This document shows positions 521 through 59,402 of a stretch of DNA of 64,000 nucleotides, piece after piece. Under the pieces are notes generated by a model. The model saw only the letters and a list, made by a program, of their open reading frames with translations. It did no database searches and was not told where the DNA came from. The DNA is from Adineta ricciae (lineage: Eukaryota; Rotifera; Eurotatoria; Adinetida; Adinetidae): the NCBI GenBank assembly GCA_905250025.1, contig CAJNOJ010000032.1, positions 233,501 to 297,500 of the forward strand, given 5' to 3'. A program made the position numbers and the translations under genes. Every line of letters begins with the position of its first letter. Position 1 is the first letter of the stretch.

Positions 521-1141
521 AGATGGGATTTAAACTGTTTGAACACCTAAATATGCTCCCTCGTCAGTAGTGAATCTTGTTAACTTGAATCATTTAGATA
601 ATTCCATCCAGATTGACAACGCATACCGGTTAATGTCAAAAAATGAGATTTTTCTGAAAAATTTTTGTACTCGAAAAAGACTTACAGAAACATTTCTTGA
701 GTATATTACATATTAATGATAACAATGATCATCTGCTTGTGTTAACAATAAACCGAAGAGATGAGTTAACCATATGCTACTCGATTTTGTCACTTCAGCG
801 CGTCCTCCATCCTTCTCTGTTAGTTTTCATTTTCTATAGAAGACTTCTCTTGCTTTTGTAAGATACTTTCGTGTTTCATTTTCTTTCTTTATCGCGATGC
901 AATGTGTATGTCACAGGTACATATCAATCGAAATCTATTCAGTTCTTGAAATGGAATAATTTAATCTTTAGAGATGAACTCGAATTATCTAGAGAACAAG
1001 CTCTTTGTCATGTCAATGTAATGAAAAGAAAAATGCATGTTCTATGAAAATCTACAAGGATTTTTCTCCTGTGAAAATATTAGAATAATGAATATATTCT
1101 CCGAAGTTGATTAATTTAATATTCGACACTGTCAAACATCT
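521..1141. other. Intergenic, no gene seen
   Basis: AT-rich sequence between the foldback and the first GPCR. No convincing ORF or RNA gene was seen; it presumably holds the promoter and 5' UTR of the receptor gene. Confidence 0.5.
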
Positions 1142-2194
1142 ATGGGTTTGACGAACAATGCAACGGCAACCGTCGAATTCAAATGGTGGTTCATTGCTAT
1201 CGATGTATTAATGATCTTATCATCAATTTTATCAATTCTACTTGCTCTTATCTTTCTACTCATTGTTTTATTCAACAAAACATGTCACACAGTACCGATC
1301 ATGTTAACTACTAATTCGTGTTTCACGCAAATTCTCTACGGTTCAGTGATACTAAGCTTGGCGACATTTTCATTGGAAAACGATCGACAACAGAAAGTCT
1401 ATCAAGATTCGTTTTGCACACTTCGTGGCTATCTCGGCTATGTCGGAACTGGTTTACTTCTGTATTCCTTAGTTTTGGAAGCTATTTATCGATACATTGT
1501 TATCGTTTATCCAACTTATCTTTCCTGGCAATCAACATGGACTCAACTGTTTTTAATATGTTTCATCTGGATGTTTTCTTTCATATCAACTTTACCATCT
1601 TTGCTTATGAATGTGATTCAATACAGTTTTGATGATCAAATCTGCTTAGTATTCCTTCGATTGTCTTTTCCTGTTATATACAACATGTTGATTACCTATT
1701 TAATTCCGATTTCCATCATCATATCAATATACTTAAAACTGGTTCTATATGTTCATTTCATAGACAGTCGCCCAACATCTATTGCAAGAATGTACAGAGT
1801 TCGTCGTAATCTATTCGTCGTACGTCGTATAATCACGAAAATCCTTATTCTGCTAGTCCTTGGCGTGCCTTACACAATCTTTATTATCATTTCGTTTTTT
1901 ACAACTCCGCCAAAATATCATTTGCGCATCGCTACTTGTCTGCTCGTTTTATCTCAAACACTGATTATGGTTGCGATTATCTTCTTTTGTCGGCCAGTAT
2001 CGAATATTCTCATGAAATTCTTACATATGACTTCGAATTATCGAAAGTGTTGGGAAACTGTTAACCACAATGAACGCGTGTGTTTCTCCCGCGATAAAAA
2101 CGATACATCTCGTTTGGAAACGTGCGTGGTCAATACAAACGTTTGTACTTCCAACGAGAGAGACAGTTTTGTCTTGAAAATCTCCGATGCATAG
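1142..2194 (+). CDS. Orphan rhodopsin-like GPCR, intronless
   Basis: A single uninterrupted 350-residue frame with seven hydrophobic segments. TM1 is about residues 17-45; TM3 ends in EAIYRYIVIVYP around residues 113-124, where the usual DRY is replaced by YRY; TM6 is about 235-257 and TM7 about 265-285 with a short cytoplasmic tail. The N-terminus has a glycosylation site (NNAT) and no signal peptide. Cysteines in the TM2-TM3 loop (FCTLRGYL) and in extracellular loop 2 (QICLVF) could form the conserved disulfide. The ligand is unknown. Such intron-poor orphan receptors of FMRFamide/peptide-receptor type are common in rotifers. An AATAAA-like run follows the stop codon. Confidence that it is a GPCR is high; the subfamily is unresolved. 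Confidence 0.85.
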   Translation: MGLTNNATATVEFKWWFIAIDVLMILSSILSILLALIFLLIVLFNKTCHTVPIMLTTNSCFTQILYGSVILSLATFSLENDRQQKVYQDSFCTLRGYLGYVGTGLLLYSLVLEAIYRYIVIVYPTYLSWQSTWTQLFLICFIWMFSFISTLPSLLMNVIQYSFDDQICLVFLRLSFPVIYNMLITYLIPISIIISIYLKLVLYVHFIDSRPTSIARMYRVRRNLFVVRRIITKILILLVLGVPYTIFIIISFFTTPPKYHLRIATCLLVLSQTLIMVAIIFFCRPVSNILMKFLHMTSNYRKCWETVNHNERVCFSRDKNDTSRLETCVVNTNVCTSNERDSFVLKISDA

Positions 2195-7483: not shown

Positions 7484-7691
7484 GTTTTAGCAATATTCAT
7501 GAAGAATCAATCGATCCGTCTATTCAATTCTCTTTTCTTCTTCCTGTCGTTGCCAGAGGAAACGAAGAGAAAACGGTTTGAAATCAGCCGATAGATGTCG
7601 TTAGTCGTTCACAAGAGATTTTTATTAAAATATTCATTTCATATAGGAATCAAATGTTTTTATTTAGAAAAAATTGGTAAGCATATCGTAT

Positions 7692-8211
7692 TTAACCGTG
7701 AACAAAGCGTTTGCCATGAACAAAACGTTTGCCGTGAACAAATCTTTTACCATGAACGAAACGTTTTTCGAGATCATCACTGGTATCTTCGACTTCACTG
7801 TCTTCATCAGTCGAGCGCCCATGAACGAAGCCTTTCAAATAAGCACTGAAAGGAACAAGAAGAAAGTTCATCGTGTACATCGAAAAGCTTAGAGTTTTAC
7901 CGTTTTGTAAATGCTTGATGATTGGAACAGAAATCGGCACAGTACTTCACGAGTTCTTCATCGGAGTCGCTAAATGTTGATCGAGCTACTCGAGCATTAG
8001 ATCTAAAATGATTAATGGATGGTTCCTCCAGATGAGAAAGTCTTTTGACATACTCTGAGTTTGACTTGGATGACTAAAAAGGAGCAAAACGTGTGAAAAT
8101 CATGTTCAGGTGTAGAGAATAACTTACACTAGGTGTGGAGAGAACAGCAGTGATGAAGAGCGAAAGTAGGCACACGGCCATTGAGAGTCGGACAATGAAT
8201 GTGGGTTGCAT
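7692..8211 (-). CDS. Neuropeptide-like precursor with repeated FVHG-KR units
   Basis: Three exons (8128-8211, 7901-8073, 7692-7845) with GT..AG introns encode 136 residues. The first exon is exactly 28 codons and looks like a signal peptide (MQPTFIVRLSMAVCLLSLFI, then TAVLSTPS). A linker carries YVKR and a CADFC pair ending in TKR. Then follow AYLKGFVHGR, an acidic spacer ending in EKR, and four tandem copies of FVHG separated by KR, the last followed directly by the stop. Dibasic sites plus C-terminal Gly are the classic layout of a precursor processed by prohormone convertase, carboxypeptidase and amidation, here giving FVH-amide and perhaps AYLKGFVH-amide. I do not recognise this peptide family. 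A TATATA box lies about 70 nt upstream of the start. Confidence 0.75.
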
Positions 8212-8285: not shown

Positions 8286-8750
8286 CAGTATGAGATCGAA
8301 GAGAGAAAATCGATCAATACGCGTGGGATGGAAGACGCTGAGAACAAATTGAATCTCTCTCTCTCCTTTTGTCATATCAAAGAAACTCCGAGAAATTGTC
8401 GATCGACCTTTTTCCTATTAAATTTAATTCTATTTCCCAGTTTTCGTGTATCCATATCGCAATTACAACGTTAATTAGTGTCTCTTGCTCGAAATAGCAC
8501 AAGTTAATTCATATTTCGATCTCCTAGATATTCAATTACGAAGGAATAGAATCGATTAGTGAGTAACTACGTTGGTACATTTCATTTAGGTCAACTTAAC
8601 ATCTGCTCTAACAAGTCAATTTACAAAAAGCACTGTAAACAAAATTTATTCGATTAGAAAAAAAAGACATGAAATGCTTGAATAGTATCAATATATAAAC
8701 TGACAAAATAAATTGAAAATATTTGCTTGATTATTGCTGTAGAAGAAATT
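8286..8750. other. Intergenic, no gene seen
   Basis: AT-rich spacer between the peptide-precursor promoter and the stop codon of the PNPOx-like gene. No gene or structured element was seen. Confidence 0.45.
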
Positions 8751-10195: not shown

Positions 10196-10690
10196 TTAGG
10201 TTAACATAGCTTCGGCTTTGTTCTTTGTTTGAGTTTTCTTGCGTTTTGTGACCTTGCCTGCGTTTTTCTTCATCTTCTTTTGTTTTTCGTTTCGTTTTTG
10301 TACTGCTTGCTTAGCTTGAAGGTGTTTTCGTTGACGACCGCTTAACCATGAAGGATATTGACCATCTTTGTTCTTCAACGTTCGACTGTTGAACTCCGAT
10401 GTGCCACTACCGCCGACTTGCATCTCTACTCATATTGATGGAAAAGTTGTCGGCAGGTGAAAAAAGAAATTCCATTTACCTTCGTCGTTTGCTGTACGCT
10501 CTGGAATTGGCACAGTTGATGCTTGAAAAAAAAAGTGAATTAGTGGCACATTAGTGATAGAAGTGAACTTACGAATTAGATTGTCTTGTTTTAAAGATGC
10601 GAGTCGTTTCACTTCATCTTTTTTGGCTAATTTTTCTCGAAGAATCTTGCGCATTGCACGCATATGTTTACTTCGTTTGCTTTTAGCCAT
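10196..10690 (-). CDS. LLPH: LLP homologue (LLPH), ribosome-biogenesis associated nucleolar protein
   Basis: Three exons (10573-10690, 10480-10521, 10196-10425) give 129 residues, the same length as human LLPH. The N-terminus MAKSKRSKHMRAMRKILR and the conserved C-terminal box DGQYPSWLSGRQRKHLQAK match the family, with a Lys-rich tail. It is a small, very basic protein expected in the nucleolus, where the family associates with pre-60S particles. It is divergent from RPS8, so the two ribosome-related genes share the 0.8-kb region between them. Confidence 0.9.
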
Positions 10691-11461
10691 GACCAGACTG
10701 AACTTCAATGAATGTTGAAGAAATGAATTTGCTGATCTATTTTAAATAGAAAACGTTTAGTTCGAGATAAGACACTTTCGATCAATGCTGTACTCATTGG
10801 CTCGCCATTACTATAAGCATGTGATCTGGCTTTCATGTAGAGGATCTACGAAAAGGGGGCGCTCGGTAACGAAATTTCACTTTCACATTCTCCCGAAATT
10901 CCGCAACGCTTCTCAGTCATAATCCAATGCACGAGACTAGACCAAATATCTTCATATATGGACAGAGAAGAAACCCGTACACGTCCTTTAGGAAGTTAGA
11001 ACAGATCATGTGTTATCCTACACGAAAGAGAGTATTCTTCGTTTGATAAAGAGTGGGAAGTGATGTGGACAAGCGTATGGTTTTTCTGTCGGGAGTTTTT
11101 AGACAAGAATCGGACTCTCTAACTTTCGAACTCAGAATGTTTTGACTGCTGAGTGTATATAAGTACCATTCGATAGATGTCGCTTGAAAACTCCGACTCT
11201 AAAAAATGTGATTTTTTCTCTAAAATTCATTTCCATGAATGTGTATAAAAATTGCCAGGGAGTTTTCCTCGTCGAAAATATTTTTATTTATTTTATCTGT
11301 CCTCCTCACACCGATTTCTCACTGGTCAGTTGTCTTTACTAAAGATGGATTCTCGAAAAATGATTATTTTCGTAATTTTACATGTAAAAATTGCGATTTG
11401 ATCAAACTTGTTGGAATTTGCTTTTAGATCATCTTTTATTGAACCATCCTCGTAGAAAAAG
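10691..11461. promoter_or_regulatory. Shared intergenic region of divergent LLPH and RPS8
   Basis: A 0.77-kb head-to-head spacer between two genes of ribosome biogenesis; it must hold both promoters. No clear TATA box or motif stands out. A 3' splice acceptor (TTTTAG, about 11430) lies some 30 nt upstream of the RPS8 ATG, pointing to a 5' UTR intron or a spliced-leader site. Confidence 0.4.
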
Positions 11462-13719: not shown

Positions 13720-14829
13720 TTATAATGACTCTAATGGTTCTTGTCGACGCGAACATTGACAATGACAAATATACTTTTGCAAACGTTTCTTCGACGATCG
13801 TTTTCTTTGAATTTTCATGCCAATTGACTGATGAATGTACGAATAAATTCGTTTATCAAAGAAAACGTATGGAACAAATCGAATGGTTAAACAAAACAAA
13901 TGCGCTACTTGTTGAACGATTTGTAAAACAAATATTTGTCGATCGGATAAGATTGTTTTATACCGATAAGTCAATTCCAAAGTCACGAATTTACTAATAA
14001 TAATCGGCAGATATAGAGTAATTGACATGAACCCAATAACAAGAATAATTACTGAAATATCACGATGACGTTCTTTGCTGGTCAATCGTTCATCAGTGTT
14101 AACAAGTAAAGTCTCCTGCCGCGTGGATTTCGTGATTAAAAACTTCACTGATTGGATCGTTTTCCGTTGCGATGAACTTTTCGAAGAAAACAAATAAATT
14201 ACCAATAGGACGATCCAACCGAGATAAACGAGAATGTCTGTAACCTCAGCGAAGATGTGATTTATATTTTGGATTCTTGTCACCAATTCGTTTGTGTTGA
14301 TGTCGATGATGCAGTTGTGAACGTTGGGGCTTTGTGCATCAGCTACTAAATTGATTGAGGTCGAGCCCAAAACACTACGAATGATAATAAAAGCAAAGAT
14401 AAACACCACAGATAAACGTCCACCGATTTGTCCTAAGACACTATCATAATGCCGAGCGTAGTTTGTAATTAAATGTAATAGACAAACGAATAACAAGAGT
14501 GTCGAACCGGTGAAAGTAAATGGCGTAAGAAAAAATGATAATGGGCAAAGAATCTGATGGTTAATTATATTTACGTAGGATTCGATTGTTAATAAAATAC
14601 TCGCGTAGACGACGCAGTAGAGACAATCACATAACGTCATGATGATCAAGAGGAAATATGTGGTACATTGATGACGTCGAAGTAGTAAAAGAACAATTAA
14701 TAAAATAGAATTGGTCAACACACCGATGCAGGAAACACACAAGTTTATCAAACGAATGTAATGATTTAGAGAATTAGCATTCTCAACCGGGGGTTCTACT
14801 GTGGTGAAGTTCAGATCCATCACTTCCAT
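13720..14829 (-). CDS. Divergent orphan rhodopsin-like GPCR
   Basis: One uninterrupted 369-residue frame with seven hydrophobic stretches. TM1 begins near residue 25 and contains GVLTNSILLIVLLLL (the GN of TM1 is replaced by TN). TM3 ends at LLHLITNYARHYD, with no DRY. There is a basic third loop (KSSSQRKTIQSVKFLITKSTRQE), then TM6 around ISVIILVIGFMSITLYLP, and TM7 ends at IRFVPYVFFD where NPxxY would be. A Lys/Arg- and Cys-rich tail (KYICHCQCSRR) could be palmitoylated. An acceptor CTACAG immediately precedes the ATG, so the 5' end is probably trans-spliced or follows a 5' UTR intron. Ligand unknown. It resembles the lineage-specific orphan receptor expansions of rotifers. Confidence 0.75.
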   Translation of the reverse strand: MEVMDLNFTTVEPPVENANSLNHYIRLINLCVSCIGVLTNSILLIVLLLLRRHQCTTYFLLIIMTLCDCLYCVVYASILLTIESYVNIINHQILCPLSFFLTPFTFTGSTLLLFVCLLHLITNYARHYDSVLGQIGGRLSVVFIFAFIIIRSVLGSTSINLVADAQSPNVHNCIIDINTNELVTRIQNINHIFAEVTDILVYLGWIVLLVIYLFSSKSSSQRKTIQSVKFLITKSTRQETLLVNTDERLTSKERHRDISVIILVIGFMSITLYLPIIISKFVTLELTYRYKTILSDRQIFVLQIVQQVAHLFCLTIRFVPYVFFDKRIYSYIHQSIGMKIQRKRSSKKRLQKYICHCQCSRRQEPLESL

Positions 14830-17204
14830 CTGTAGGTCAATGTGTTATCTGTAAAAAAAAGAAAGCAAGTCGGTTTCCACATGACAGCCAAACAATTAAA
14901 TATTAATATTCCACTTGAAGAGAAAACTATGAGATAATTATCAATAAAATGGAAACATATGACATAGATAGAAATTACATTATCCATTCTCGAAAGAGAA
15001 ATAAATAAGAATTTTGATGAAGTAACGATTTTTCTAGTTCTGCACATCTTACTTGTTGAATCATATTAACCGATAATAAGCAGATCTGTGAATGTTTCAT
15101 TTTCTCAGAGGTTCTTGTCTATAAATGTTGTTGCGCCTGACTTTCTCCGTGTCTTTCCCTGAAGAGAGAAGTAGCATGTGCATCCGTTTTCTATCATCTT
15201 CATGTCGAGCGCAGAAGAAAGAACACAATAGTTCTTTTCCTTTCCTCGCTGACAGACTTTGCTCTGAATTCTTATTCGTGGAAAATAATTTTTAATGAAC
15301 TAGAAATCAATATATAATTACATACTGGAATCGTACTAAGACTGTAATTGTCGTAATTAAATAAGTTTCTACTTGAAATGACTTTTTTTTCATGAACCGT
15401 CATGTGAACTTGGAGTATTAATGGACTAATTAATGAGAATTCTACCTCAATTCATTCTGTTTCCTCTAGGTTAAACCCTGATAGGGGACATGATTTTGAC
15501 GAAAAGAAAAGAAATCTGAAGTTTCACGTTCGATAGAGTATGTGGAGCAAAGAAGAAAAGCAGATCTTCTCAGAGAAGGGATGATAATCCGATAGTTCGT
15601 TGTTTTCTGAAGAATGGTGCTGTGCTTGGTATTTCAAATGTTCTCAGTTGTACGTGCCACATAGATTCGTCTGATTGTGATAATAATAATCAGATCAGCA
15701 AATTTAAAGAAGCATATACTCATTTCAGCAGAATAAGAATTGACTAAAGCCTATGTAATTATATGACAGGCGAACAAAACTTTCGGCCCCCCTCCCTCCC
15801 TCCTCTCTGTCTTCCTTTCTTTCCTACGTTTTCTTCATAGTCTACTGGAAAACGTCGAGTATCTTAGAGAAATAGGAAGATATTTCTAACATCATTAAAA
15901 AGAAGATGGGAAATGTTGTTCTCGCCATCGTCACTACACTATTATTTTCCTTTTTTTTCTTTTGTATATTAGTGCTATTCATCTATATGTGAATGTATCT
16001 TGTATCTATATATGAAATAAGTCGTTCTCGCTTATTAAATACACTGATTAGATTTCATTATTATATGCACCATTGTTTGTTACTCAATGATTTTTCAAGA
16101 AGGCAGAAAATGGCTTGCAGTTCTTTGTGAATAGAACTAAATGAAGAAGAATTGAATTAGACTGAAATAAGTTCAAAGTGAATTACTTTTCTACGTCTGC
16201 GATATTTTTTGTGATGAATTAGTTGGAAAAAGAGATGTGATTGATGAATATTGATGGTGATCGATCGATGAAATTCGTAGTCGAAAACAGAAAACTATGA
16301 TGATTTATAATAATTGAACATGACAATCAAGTGAATTTTTGAAGTTGTATTATAATATGAAAATGACATTGCTCTCTTAAGACGTGAAATGAATGGAAAA
16401 TTTTAATCACATCTCTTAACATGCGAACGGCTGTACTCGCCAAAGAAGAATTAATCAACAATAGGCAAATCTTTTCTTTCTCACTTGCTTTTAGTTTGAT
16501 ATTAATAAGATGTAAATGATTCTCGTTCGTCGTCTGAAAAACTCCCAACAAATACTTTGAAAAGATTCTGAAAACTTAACTCTCAAGCTGTGCCGTCACT
16601 TATGACATCTTGCAGACATCGAAGTAAAGTAATTTCTTCGGTAAATATTTACGTTATACTTCAGGGAGATGACAAAAGCATCTTTGATGTAGTTCTTTTG
16701 CAGAAAAAGAAATACTCGTTGCCCGACGTTTGTTAACGTGTAGAGAGTTGTACTGATGTGGAGTTATTTCAACCATCGAATAGTTTAATAATGCTTCATG
16801 GTAAACAAATAGGAATACTAATTGAGTTCGCGATCTCTTGTTTAGAATATGAACAGCTTAAGGACTCTTCTTATTCGAATCAAGATCGACGGGAAGTTAG
16901 AGTTCATGCTTGTCGGATCTATTGTCCGATTGTTTACCATGTCAATCAGTCTCGAGTTCGTGTTTTTTGTTCTCCGAAAAACTTTCATCGATAGGTACGT
17001 ACTTAATCATCAGAACAGATCTGACGGAGATCGATTGAACTTGTCCCCGAAGGATATGAGTTATTTGCCAAATAAATCCCAATGGAATCTCACGTTAACT
17101 CAAACGATTCAGTGTAAGATGTGTGTTTTGCTCAAGTAATTCTCTTATCGCTTGGAAAGTTTGGCGTTCCTAAACGCTACGATCGTTTATTAGAAAAATA
17201 GTAT
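14830..17204. other. Intergenic, no gene seen
   Basis: About 2.4 kb without a convincing gene. It includes a polypyrimidine tract (C/T run near 15785-15830). The frames at 16327-16551 and 16758-17139 have no family features and no splice logic linking them. Confidence 0.45.
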
Positions 17205-57319: not shown

Positions 57320-58440
57320 TGATTTATATGAATATAAACTTACTTCACTGTCGTCCGATGAAATTATATCACGATGAATGGAATTAGCATCCGGTGCAGC
57401 TATAAATGGAGAATATAAAAGAATGATTGTCATACATGCGTTTTACTTACCATCGTTGATCCATTTTTGAATGAAAAAATTTTTATCTGAATAGTTTTCG
57501 TTCCACCCAATTGCTCCCGTACATGATAAAGATGAACCCAAAGAAGATTTATCATCTTTATCAATATCATCATCCCAGGTTATTATGGCACGGTCGGTTC
57601 CGGCCGGTTAGGTTCGTTTTCCGACCATTTCCTTGCCACCGGATTCCGGCCGGAAGTTCAAACGTAGGTTCCAGTCATTTCCCGGCCGTTCCCTGCAAAC
57701 TTCGAGCTGGAAACGGTCAGGAGCTGATCGGATATTTCCTGTGCAATTCCGGCCGGAATCCGGCGGCAAGGAACCTGCCGGCACTTGCTGGAATCGGCGA
57801 AAACTGTGCCGGAATCGAGAAGAGCTGTACCGGAACTGACTCAGATTTCAACGGATCCAGTCACCGGAATGATCGACCTGGGATCATCATTATTGTTAGA
57901 AACTGGCACGGGGGGTAATTGATTGAGGATTTTTGTATATTCGTTTCTTTCTTCGATTTCTATTTGAAGCAGGATTGTATGAATATATCGTAATTCTTCA
58001 ACTGGGAAGTATTCAAACGAAGTTTTGTAGTCGCTGCAATCATCATCATATGTCGGTATCAATATCAAATATGTTCCAAAAGTAGATATTTGATGCTTGT
58101 GGCTTCTTTGTTGCGGCGCGTATTGTTCTTCTGTCACCTAATGGTTTCTTGTCATGCACTGATAGAAGACGCTTAATTATGTACTGACGTGGCAGATGCT
58201 TCATGAAATCATTTCCATCGTCAGTTACGTCCATGCCTCCGAATCGGGCCATCACTAGCACTTGTACTAGCGGGTGTGTTTTCCAAATAAGACAGGGTCT
58301 TGGTTTCGCTCTGTCGTTCGATGCTTTTGACGATGCTGATGATGATTTCGAGGATCTAGAGCCGTCTTTGACACCAAATAATTTTGCAACACTTATATGC
58401 CTTGGATGGATTCCTCCAATAGCTGGACATATTATTTTCG
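57320..58440 (-). pseudogene. Unrecognised duplicated gene, copy A, disrupted by an element
   Basis: Minus-strand coding blocks recur in unit B. Block one: LVQVLVMARFGGMDVTDDGN then FMKHLPRQYIIKRLLSVHDK. Block two: FGTYLILIPTYDDDCSDYKT then FEYFPVEELRYIHTILLQIE. Block three: GWNENYSDKNFFIQKWINDG. The GC-rich element at 57574-57882 sits between blocks two and three with an 8-bp direct repeat, which inserts about 317 bp. The junction between blocks one and two also needs a frame change that I could not explain by a normal intron. The 5' side runs into another element at 58452. Function unknown. Confidence 0.5.
57574..57882 (+). mobile_element. Short GC-rich CCCAGGT element, copy 2, with 8-bp target duplication
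   Basis: A 309-bp element beginning CCCAGGTTATTATGG and ending GATCGACCTGGG, so the outer 7 bp are perfect inverted repeats. It is flanked on both sides by ATCATCAT (57566-57573 and 57883-57890). The inside is GC-rich with many CCGGAA motifs and has no transposase. The paralogous site in unit B (near 62810-62820) lacks it. An 8-bp duplication is expected of hAT- or P-type transposases, so this looks like a non-autonomous MITE; the repeat is low-complexity, which weakens the duplication call. Confidence 0.82.
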
Positions 58441-58451
58441 AACCTGAAATA

Positions 58452-58793
58452 CCCAGGTCGAACAATCCCATACTCGGACCCCATCGGATCCAATACAGAA
58501 TTTTATCGGATCCTACAGGAATTCGACGGATCCGATGAAATCCTGGTGACGGAATCGCATTGGATTCCGACAGTCTCGGATCCGATCGGATCCGAAACAT
58601 GGATTTCCTGGATTTTCTAAGGGTCATGATAGAACATAGCTAGAAAGATCGCTCATAAAATTTGCAACAACCGATGGGATTTTTCTAGTCGGATTCCAAT
58701 GCAATTCCGTTTCCAGGAATCCGATCGGATTTTGTCAGATGGTCGGATCCGGTAAGATCCGATCGGATCCAGCATCGGATTTGTTGACCTGGG
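58452..58793. mobile_element. Element with CGGATCC-rich interior and CCCAGGTC ends
   Basis: A 342-bp segment starting CCCAGGTCGAACAA and ending TTGTTGACCTGGG, inverted ends of about 13 bp with one indel. The inside is a dense array of degenerate ATCGGATCC/GGATCCGAT motifs in both orientations. The ends resemble those of the CCCAGGT elements at 52373 and 57574 although the interior is different. Flanks give only TA on both sides, with no clear longer duplication. Non-coding. Confidence 0.72.
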
Positions 58794-59096
58794 TACACGT
58801 AACTGCGCCGCAATCGTTCAAAAATAGGCACCATGAGAAGTATTATATAAAAACTCTCACGTAGATCTCACTCTAGTCGGCTTCAAATTGAAGCCACTTT
58901 TATACAAATTCTCTTCTTTTTTAATCCTGTTCTATTTATTCATATCAAACTACTTTCAATTGATTTGTCCAAACATGTCAGCAAAACGAACACTGTCCCG
59001 AAACATTTATCCATCGACTCGCTTCCGACTATTCAAAATCAAAAAAGAATTTACTTCCACTTATTTTATCTCTTCTAAGCAACTCAAGTAAGCGCC

Positions 59097-59160
59097 TAGT
59101 CGTTCGTCGGCCTCCCTCCGGTCGGCCACTCACGGCTAGCCGTTCCCATGTGTACATATT
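59097..59160 (+). repeat. GC-rich direct repeat, first copy
   Basis: Contains CGGTCGGCCACTCACGGCTAG and recurs with few changes at 59403-59460 in the same orientation. It is more GC-rich than its surroundings. Origin unknown. Confidence 0.7.
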
Positions 59161-59402
59161 TTATTATTTTGACTTCATTCAGACGAAGATCTTATCCGAA
59201 GATCACAACAGAAAACTTAGCAACTCTACATAGGCATACGATTCTCTGCAAACCATTTCGTTCTTTTCTTCACAACGGCGAACTTTAAAAAGCTGCTGGA
59301 TACGTTCTTGCGGATCAGCAATTAAGCTCTGCCCAAGAAGTCTTAAGATTATATGAAAATCACTATAACCTTTTCTTTAAAATATTACTCTTCCAATCGA
59401 CA

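Follow-up and report, generated by a model that had tools for sequence, protein, structure and literature searches.

Gene structure at the FVHG locus

A small gene lies near one end of the window, by which we mean the whole 64,000-nucleotide stretch of DNA analysed here. It runs along the minus strand, in frame, from an ATG at 8211 to a stop codon at 7692, the same coordinates and strand as in the original prediction. Read in this direction, it encodes a signal-peptide-like start, then AYLKGFVHG-R and finally four FVHG units with KR between them. The three coding blocks first proposed (84, 173 and 154 nt) do join in frame, and all borders are GT-AG. Their number had to be revised: two paralogous genes of the same genome, on contigs C149 and C236, indicate that there are most likely four exons, and the three-exon model was dropped after this comparison.

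The 173-nt middle block most likely holds a further intron of 51 bp (8053-8003, GTATGT...TTTTAG). This stretch is in frame and stop-free in the window, and keeping it would give a protein of 136 residues; we consider it a likely intron because its paralog counterpart, 55 bp long, could not be retained in frame. With the 51 bp removed, the proteins of the window copy (C32) and the paralogs align without gaps from residue 1 to the acidic spacer. The corrected model has exons of 84, 20, 102 and 154 nt and encodes a protein of 119 residues, MQPTFIVRLSMAVCLLSLFITAVLSTPSSSKSNSESNARVARSTFSDSDEELVKYCADFCSNHQAFTKRAYLKGFVHGRSTDEDSEVEDTSDDLEKRFVHGKRFVHGKRFVHGKRFVHG, laid out as follows.

8128..8211, minus strand: exon 1 (84 nt), start codon and signal-peptide-like residues 1-28
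8074..8127, minus strand: intron 1 (54 bp, GT-AG), at the same position as the 58-bp intron of both paralogs
8054..8073, minus strand: putative exon 2 (20 nt), proposed because both paralogs have a 20-nt exon 2
8003..8053, minus strand: putative intron 2 (51 bp, in frame), against 55 bp for the corresponding intron of each paralog
7901..8002, minus strand: exon 3 (102 nt in all three copies), linker and conserved C-x3-C peptide
7901..7962, minus strand: DEELVKYCADFCSNHQAFTKR, main coding part, the last codon being completed at 7845
7846..7900, minus strand: intron 3 (55 bp, GT-AG), from the window and the paralog comparison
7692..7845, minus strand: exon 4, from the reading frame: AYLKGFVHGR, acidic spacer, four FVHG units and stop codon
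7815..7844, minus strand: AYLKGFVHGR, predicted source of AYLKGFVH-amide, 9/10 residues shared with C149
7692..7766, minus strand: (KR-FVHG)x4 array and stop codon, predicted source of FVH-amide, 24/24 residues shared with C149

The strongest 15-residue mean hydropathy of the protein is 2.44, from residue 11, and the hydrophobic stretch covers residues 11-25 (6-20 in C149). Signal cleavage could follow residue 25, where the residues at -3 (V) and -1 (S, or A in C236) fit the usual rule for such sites. The C-x3-C peptide ends in FT-KR, with no glycine ahead of the KR.

Three copies in one genome

The genome that contains the window comprises 130.46 Mb in 1033 contigs. With the two paralogs, it holds three copies of the gene, a single one of which is of the C32 type. 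Genome searches with protein sequence were run exon by exon, a procedure that could miss a diverged relative: the whole 136-aa protein gave eight matches, seven of them in the three loci, and the middle part of the protein alone gave six, all in these loci. The eighth match to the whole protein, on C131 (E 5.05), was taken as chance.

Both paralogous genes have four exons, of 84, 20 and 102 nt followed by 148 nt (C149) or 130 nt (C236). Each copy carries one KR-AxLKGFVHG-R and a run of KR-FVHG units, four in C32, four in C149 and three in C236. Within this genome, neither paralog has lost the repeats or shifted them out of frame, and both keep the signal-peptide-like start, the dibasic sites and the amidation glycines, which supports the neuropeptide-precursor layout claimed in the original prediction. 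The C149 and C236 copies are near-identical (dS 0.07 outside the array) and differ in unit number. It had been suggested that unit number may vary between alleles; what stands of this suggestion is the four-versus-three difference between near-identical copies, not their status as alleles. A near-identical pair accompanied by a diverged copy would be in keeping with degenerate tetraploidy of the kind seen in bdelloid rotifers. The telomere repeat TGTGGG is no guide to bdelloid affinity: it had 38 matches against 44 for its reversed control, which is merely another phase of the repeat.

Six neighbours of the gene have translated matches on C149, in unchanged order and relative direction; neighbouring frames with no match, such as 10196-10741, were left out of this count. 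The six collinear neighbours are listed here.

14844-13720, minus strand: seven-helix-like frame
Ribosomal protein S8
Glutaredoxin
8951-8754: short frame
WW-domain gene, directly downstream of the FVHG gene
4332-4072: frame adjoining the one that matches SecY

Three of the six (the short frame, glutaredoxin and the WW gene) are also present in the C236 stretch 132001-158609. That stretch yielded no S8 gene, seven-helix-like frame or SecY neighbour; these may sit beyond it, its upper limit being the contig end. Gene order thus supports the common descent of the loci.

Some other features of these neighbourhoods can be recorded. On C236, the distance between the gene and the glutaredoxin match is about 8.5 kb greater than on C149. 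Frames at 58049-59230 of the window have out-of-order matches on both contigs, at about 160.7-161.0 kb of C149 and 135.5-135.7 kb of C236, and perhaps belong to a dispersed repeat. Two long frames, 1115-2194 (plus strand) and 13720-14844 (minus strand), resemble seven-helix receptors by eye, but neither matches a Pfam family at E<=0.001; C149 carries a copy of the second with 51% identity.

The repeat array and the role of chance

Is the FVHG array simply an 18-bp tandem repeat that arose by chance in a spurious or decaying gene? The array is indeed a tandem repeat at the DNA level: Tandem Repeats Finder (TRF) reports the 18-bp period of the original prediction (7699-7766, score 94), and two of its four rows for the window describe this array. 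The difference in unit number between the near-identical C149 and C236 copies also accords with such an origin. The frequency of the motif in the genome does not. A degenerate pattern for FVHGKRFVHG, searched exactly over 130.46 Mb, has eight overlapping matches, all in the three paralogous loci, and none in the reversed control, while base composition predicts about 1e-5 matches to this two-unit pattern on both strands of the 130.46 Mb. A degenerate search for KRF[V/L/I/M/F]HGKR likewise gave eight matches, all in the same three loci, and none for the reversed control. A looser search with 20 bases and three mismatches was near chance overall (56 matches versus 53 in the control), yet the clusters on C149 and C236 showed in it. 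Within the window, a six-frame scan for at least three successive G[KR][KR] sites spaced 3-12 residues apart found the FVHG locus alone.

Comparison of the paralogs argues strongly against the chance repeat as well: frame, splice sites and residues are retained across diverged copies, and the units differ only silently. Successive array units differ by nine nucleotides in C32, three in C149 and three in C236, and 15/15 of these differences are silent; homogenisation among units could inflate this likeness within an array. On these grounds, we regard a chance repeat as extremely improbable.

A second TRF row describes the array with a 36-bp period (7696-7766, score 114). This period outscores the 18-bp one, perhaps as a result of the duplication of a two-unit block.

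Selection on the peptide units

Conservation is unevenly distributed along the precursor. Between C32 and C149, the repeated units are conserved above the rest: identity reaches 24/24 residues in the array and 9/10 in AxLKGFVHGR, against 6/23 in the linker. Values for the signal peptide (13/25) and the Cys peptide (12/21, with both Cys of C-x3-C kept) amount to half identity only, which counts against the precursor reading.

Over 116 aligned codons of this pair, pS is 0.55, dS about 1.0 and dN 0.29. In the array, pS is 0.57 and pN 0.018, and the lone non-silent step must come from the averaging of two-step codon paths at arginine, because no array residue differs. AxLKGFVHGR has a dN of 0.10 against a dS of 0.84, while the two are about equal in the linker (dN 0.57, dS 0.52). 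Substitutions in this one diverged pair (C32 and C149), within one genome, indicate that selection preserves the peptide units. From the sequence comparisons, we judge the gene to be real and under selection; its most likely product is the precursor of a multicopy amidated neuropeptide not yet described.

Flanking elements

Two short elements flank the gene.

8312..8328, minus strand: TCCCACGCGTATTGATC, conserved 17-bp element, 117 nt upstream of the ATG
7659..7664, minus strand: AATAAA, possible polyadenylation signal, 27 nt past the stop codon (14 nt in both paralogs)

Across the copies, the upstream element reads TCCCACGCGTAT(T/C)GATC, and it lies 121 nt upstream of the ATG in both paralogs. 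An exact genome search with the 17-mer found the three gene loci only (reversed control: none). In 500 shuffles each, the best local match of the upstream regions was equalled once and that of the 3' flanks 11 times. The element holds ATTGAT or ATCGAT, which we take to resemble Onecut/Cut homeodomain sites.

A predicted precursor of FVH-amide

We interpret the gene as the precursor of an orphan multicopy amidated neuropeptide that would yield FVH-amide and A(Y/P)LKGFVH-amide, a reading to which we assign a probability of roughly 85%. The signal peptide would direct the product to the secretory path, where the KR pairs, and also the lone R that follows the first FVHG, would be cleaved by proprotein convertases. 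A carboxypeptidase would then remove the basic residues and an amidating enzyme would convert each terminal glycine to an amide; in the last unit, with its glycine directly ahead of the stop codon, amidation alone would be required. On this scheme, drawn from the sites present, the window copy would give four FVH-amide and one AYLKGFVH-amide, and the paralogs APLKGFVH-amide as the longer peptide. The C-x3-C peptide ahead of the first unit might serve as a co-peptide or as a granule-sorting loop. The released peptides would be secreted signals, most likely acting via a G-protein-coupled receptor.

Part of the required machinery can be sought in the genome. A search for the convertase P-domain gave 13 matches; it was also positive in 1 of 14 control genomes, and the domain alone is not animal-specific. 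The two copper monooxygenase domains gave 24 and 16 matches, with none in the 14 controls for either. The best Cu2_monooxygen match, on C18, reads to us like a tyramine/dopamine hydroxylase, and a further one lies on C61. Exons of a gene on C94 (C94:257500-259500), with FRVHAHKLG and DDEMCNFYMMY, are in our judgement like those of PHM (peptidylglycine hydroxylating monooxygenase), and they carry HAH where HTH is usual. Because this PHM-like gene is among the copper monooxygenase matches, amidation seems plausible in this animal. When the genome was searched for the amidating enzyme's HTH motif, three matches stood against two in the control, too small a difference to be informative. The same two copper monooxygenase domains are also matched at C98:195073-196042.

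The predicted tripeptide amide is unusually short, which counts against our interpretation, and the products may lengthen where KR sites are skipped. One may then ask whether the main active product is instead the single A(Y/P)LKGFVH-amide, or GFVH-amide released by a cut at the inner K, the array units being lesser, redundant or partly uncut. The longer unit is retained in all three copies, with 9/10 residues the same in C32 and C149, and a tripeptide would presumably offer little room for receptor recognition. Against this stand the array, which is the best conserved part of the protein (24/24 residues), and the KR that precedes each of its units. We hold this alternative to be possible but doubtful.

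The sequence argues for secretion and cleavage, not for neurons, and the gene might encode the precursor of a secreted, non-neuronal peptide that serves in defence, glands or reproduction, or that binds metal. Against this, the multicopy glycine/KR layout with acidic spacers is typical of neuropeptide precursors; we consider such a role distinctly improbable. The letters FVHG do occur in papers on clavanin, a tunicate antimicrobial peptide, and are presumably found inside the clavanin peptide itself; this is probably chance. As for metal binding, FVH matches the X-X-His copper motif (PMC8389909).

A more specific proposal along this line concerns copper: the units may be minimal N-terminal Cu(II)-binding tripeptides, a secreted signal that acts or travels as a Cu(II) complex, in a lineage-specific family with its own receptor or metal-handling role. 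FVH-amide would be an X-X-His peptide with a free N-terminus, as would FVHG and FVHGKR if trimming or amidation were incomplete. As a precedent, Jones et al. (2016) reportedly described a neuropeptide precursor whose products are a cocktail of peptides that bind Cu(II). The ATCUN motif has also been described for other neuropeptides, among them neurokinin B and neuromedin C (PMC8389909). The fit of FVH to this motif is a matter of chemistry, not functional evidence, and we consider the copper proposal unlikely.

Relation to known peptide families

While the kind of precursor is known, the family itself seems new. For the 119-aa protein, Pfam gave no family at E<=0.1; the 136-aa and 117-aa proteins had two and four families at E<=1, none above the cut-off (best E 0.013). 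There was no match at E<=1 in a PDB sequence search, and none in Rfam for the window. In the papers listed by our literature searches, we found no FVH-amide family. By their titles and the beginnings of their abstracts, none of the literature matches listed, which were to the FVHG string alone, concerned a rotifer neuropeptide. A paper on a starfish pedal-peptide-type precursor has FVHG within a longer peptide (PMC5656890).

Several known families share part of this design. Thyrotropin-releasing hormone (TRH) is itself a tripeptide amide, and the precursors of TRH and of the EFLGamides, like the present one, contain tandem runs of very short amidated peptides bordered by glycine and dibasic sites. 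The EFLGamides of lophotrochozoans have been proposed as TRH orthologs (PMC4772807). The units of our gene are FVHG in all three copies, unlike pQHP-amide or EFLG-amide, and do not match the motif of that family. To our knowledge, no conserved C-x3-C peptide occurs in TRH or EFLGamide precursors.

Molluscan NdWFamide and APGWamide, amidated peptides of three and four residues, are also short, but their sequences are unrelated to FVH-amide. In the rotifer Brachionus plicatilis, an APGW/AKH precursor carries APGWamide copies and its gene is described as intronless (PMC10730642), whereas the FVHG gene has three introns. De Oliveira et al. (2019) describe FCAP-related precursors in three species of the bdelloid genus Rotaria; these are multicopy like the FVHG precursor, but their eight or nine copies are of fixed 11-residue peptides, and neither FVHG nor KRFVH occurs in that paper's main text (PMC6425005). 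EP/CCHamide, a two-Cys peptide in a secreted precursor, is reported from rotifers (PMC6617912). There the two Cys lie inside a single-copy amidated peptide, whereas the C-x3-C peptide of the FVHG precursor ends in FTKR, without an amidation glycine.

Significance

Peptide signalling in rotifers, and in gnathiferans generally, is little charted. Thiel et al. (2021) present an in-depth gnathiferan survey as the next frontier, these animals being without deep sampling, and mention a study with three bdelloid species that identified very few precursors (PMC8557429). If our interpretation is true, the repeated product of this orphan family, a tripeptide amide, would rank with the shortest neuropeptides known; it would be inexpensive to make and open to direct test. 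In the near-identical pair with four and three units, one would moreover see the gain or loss of a unit in progress.
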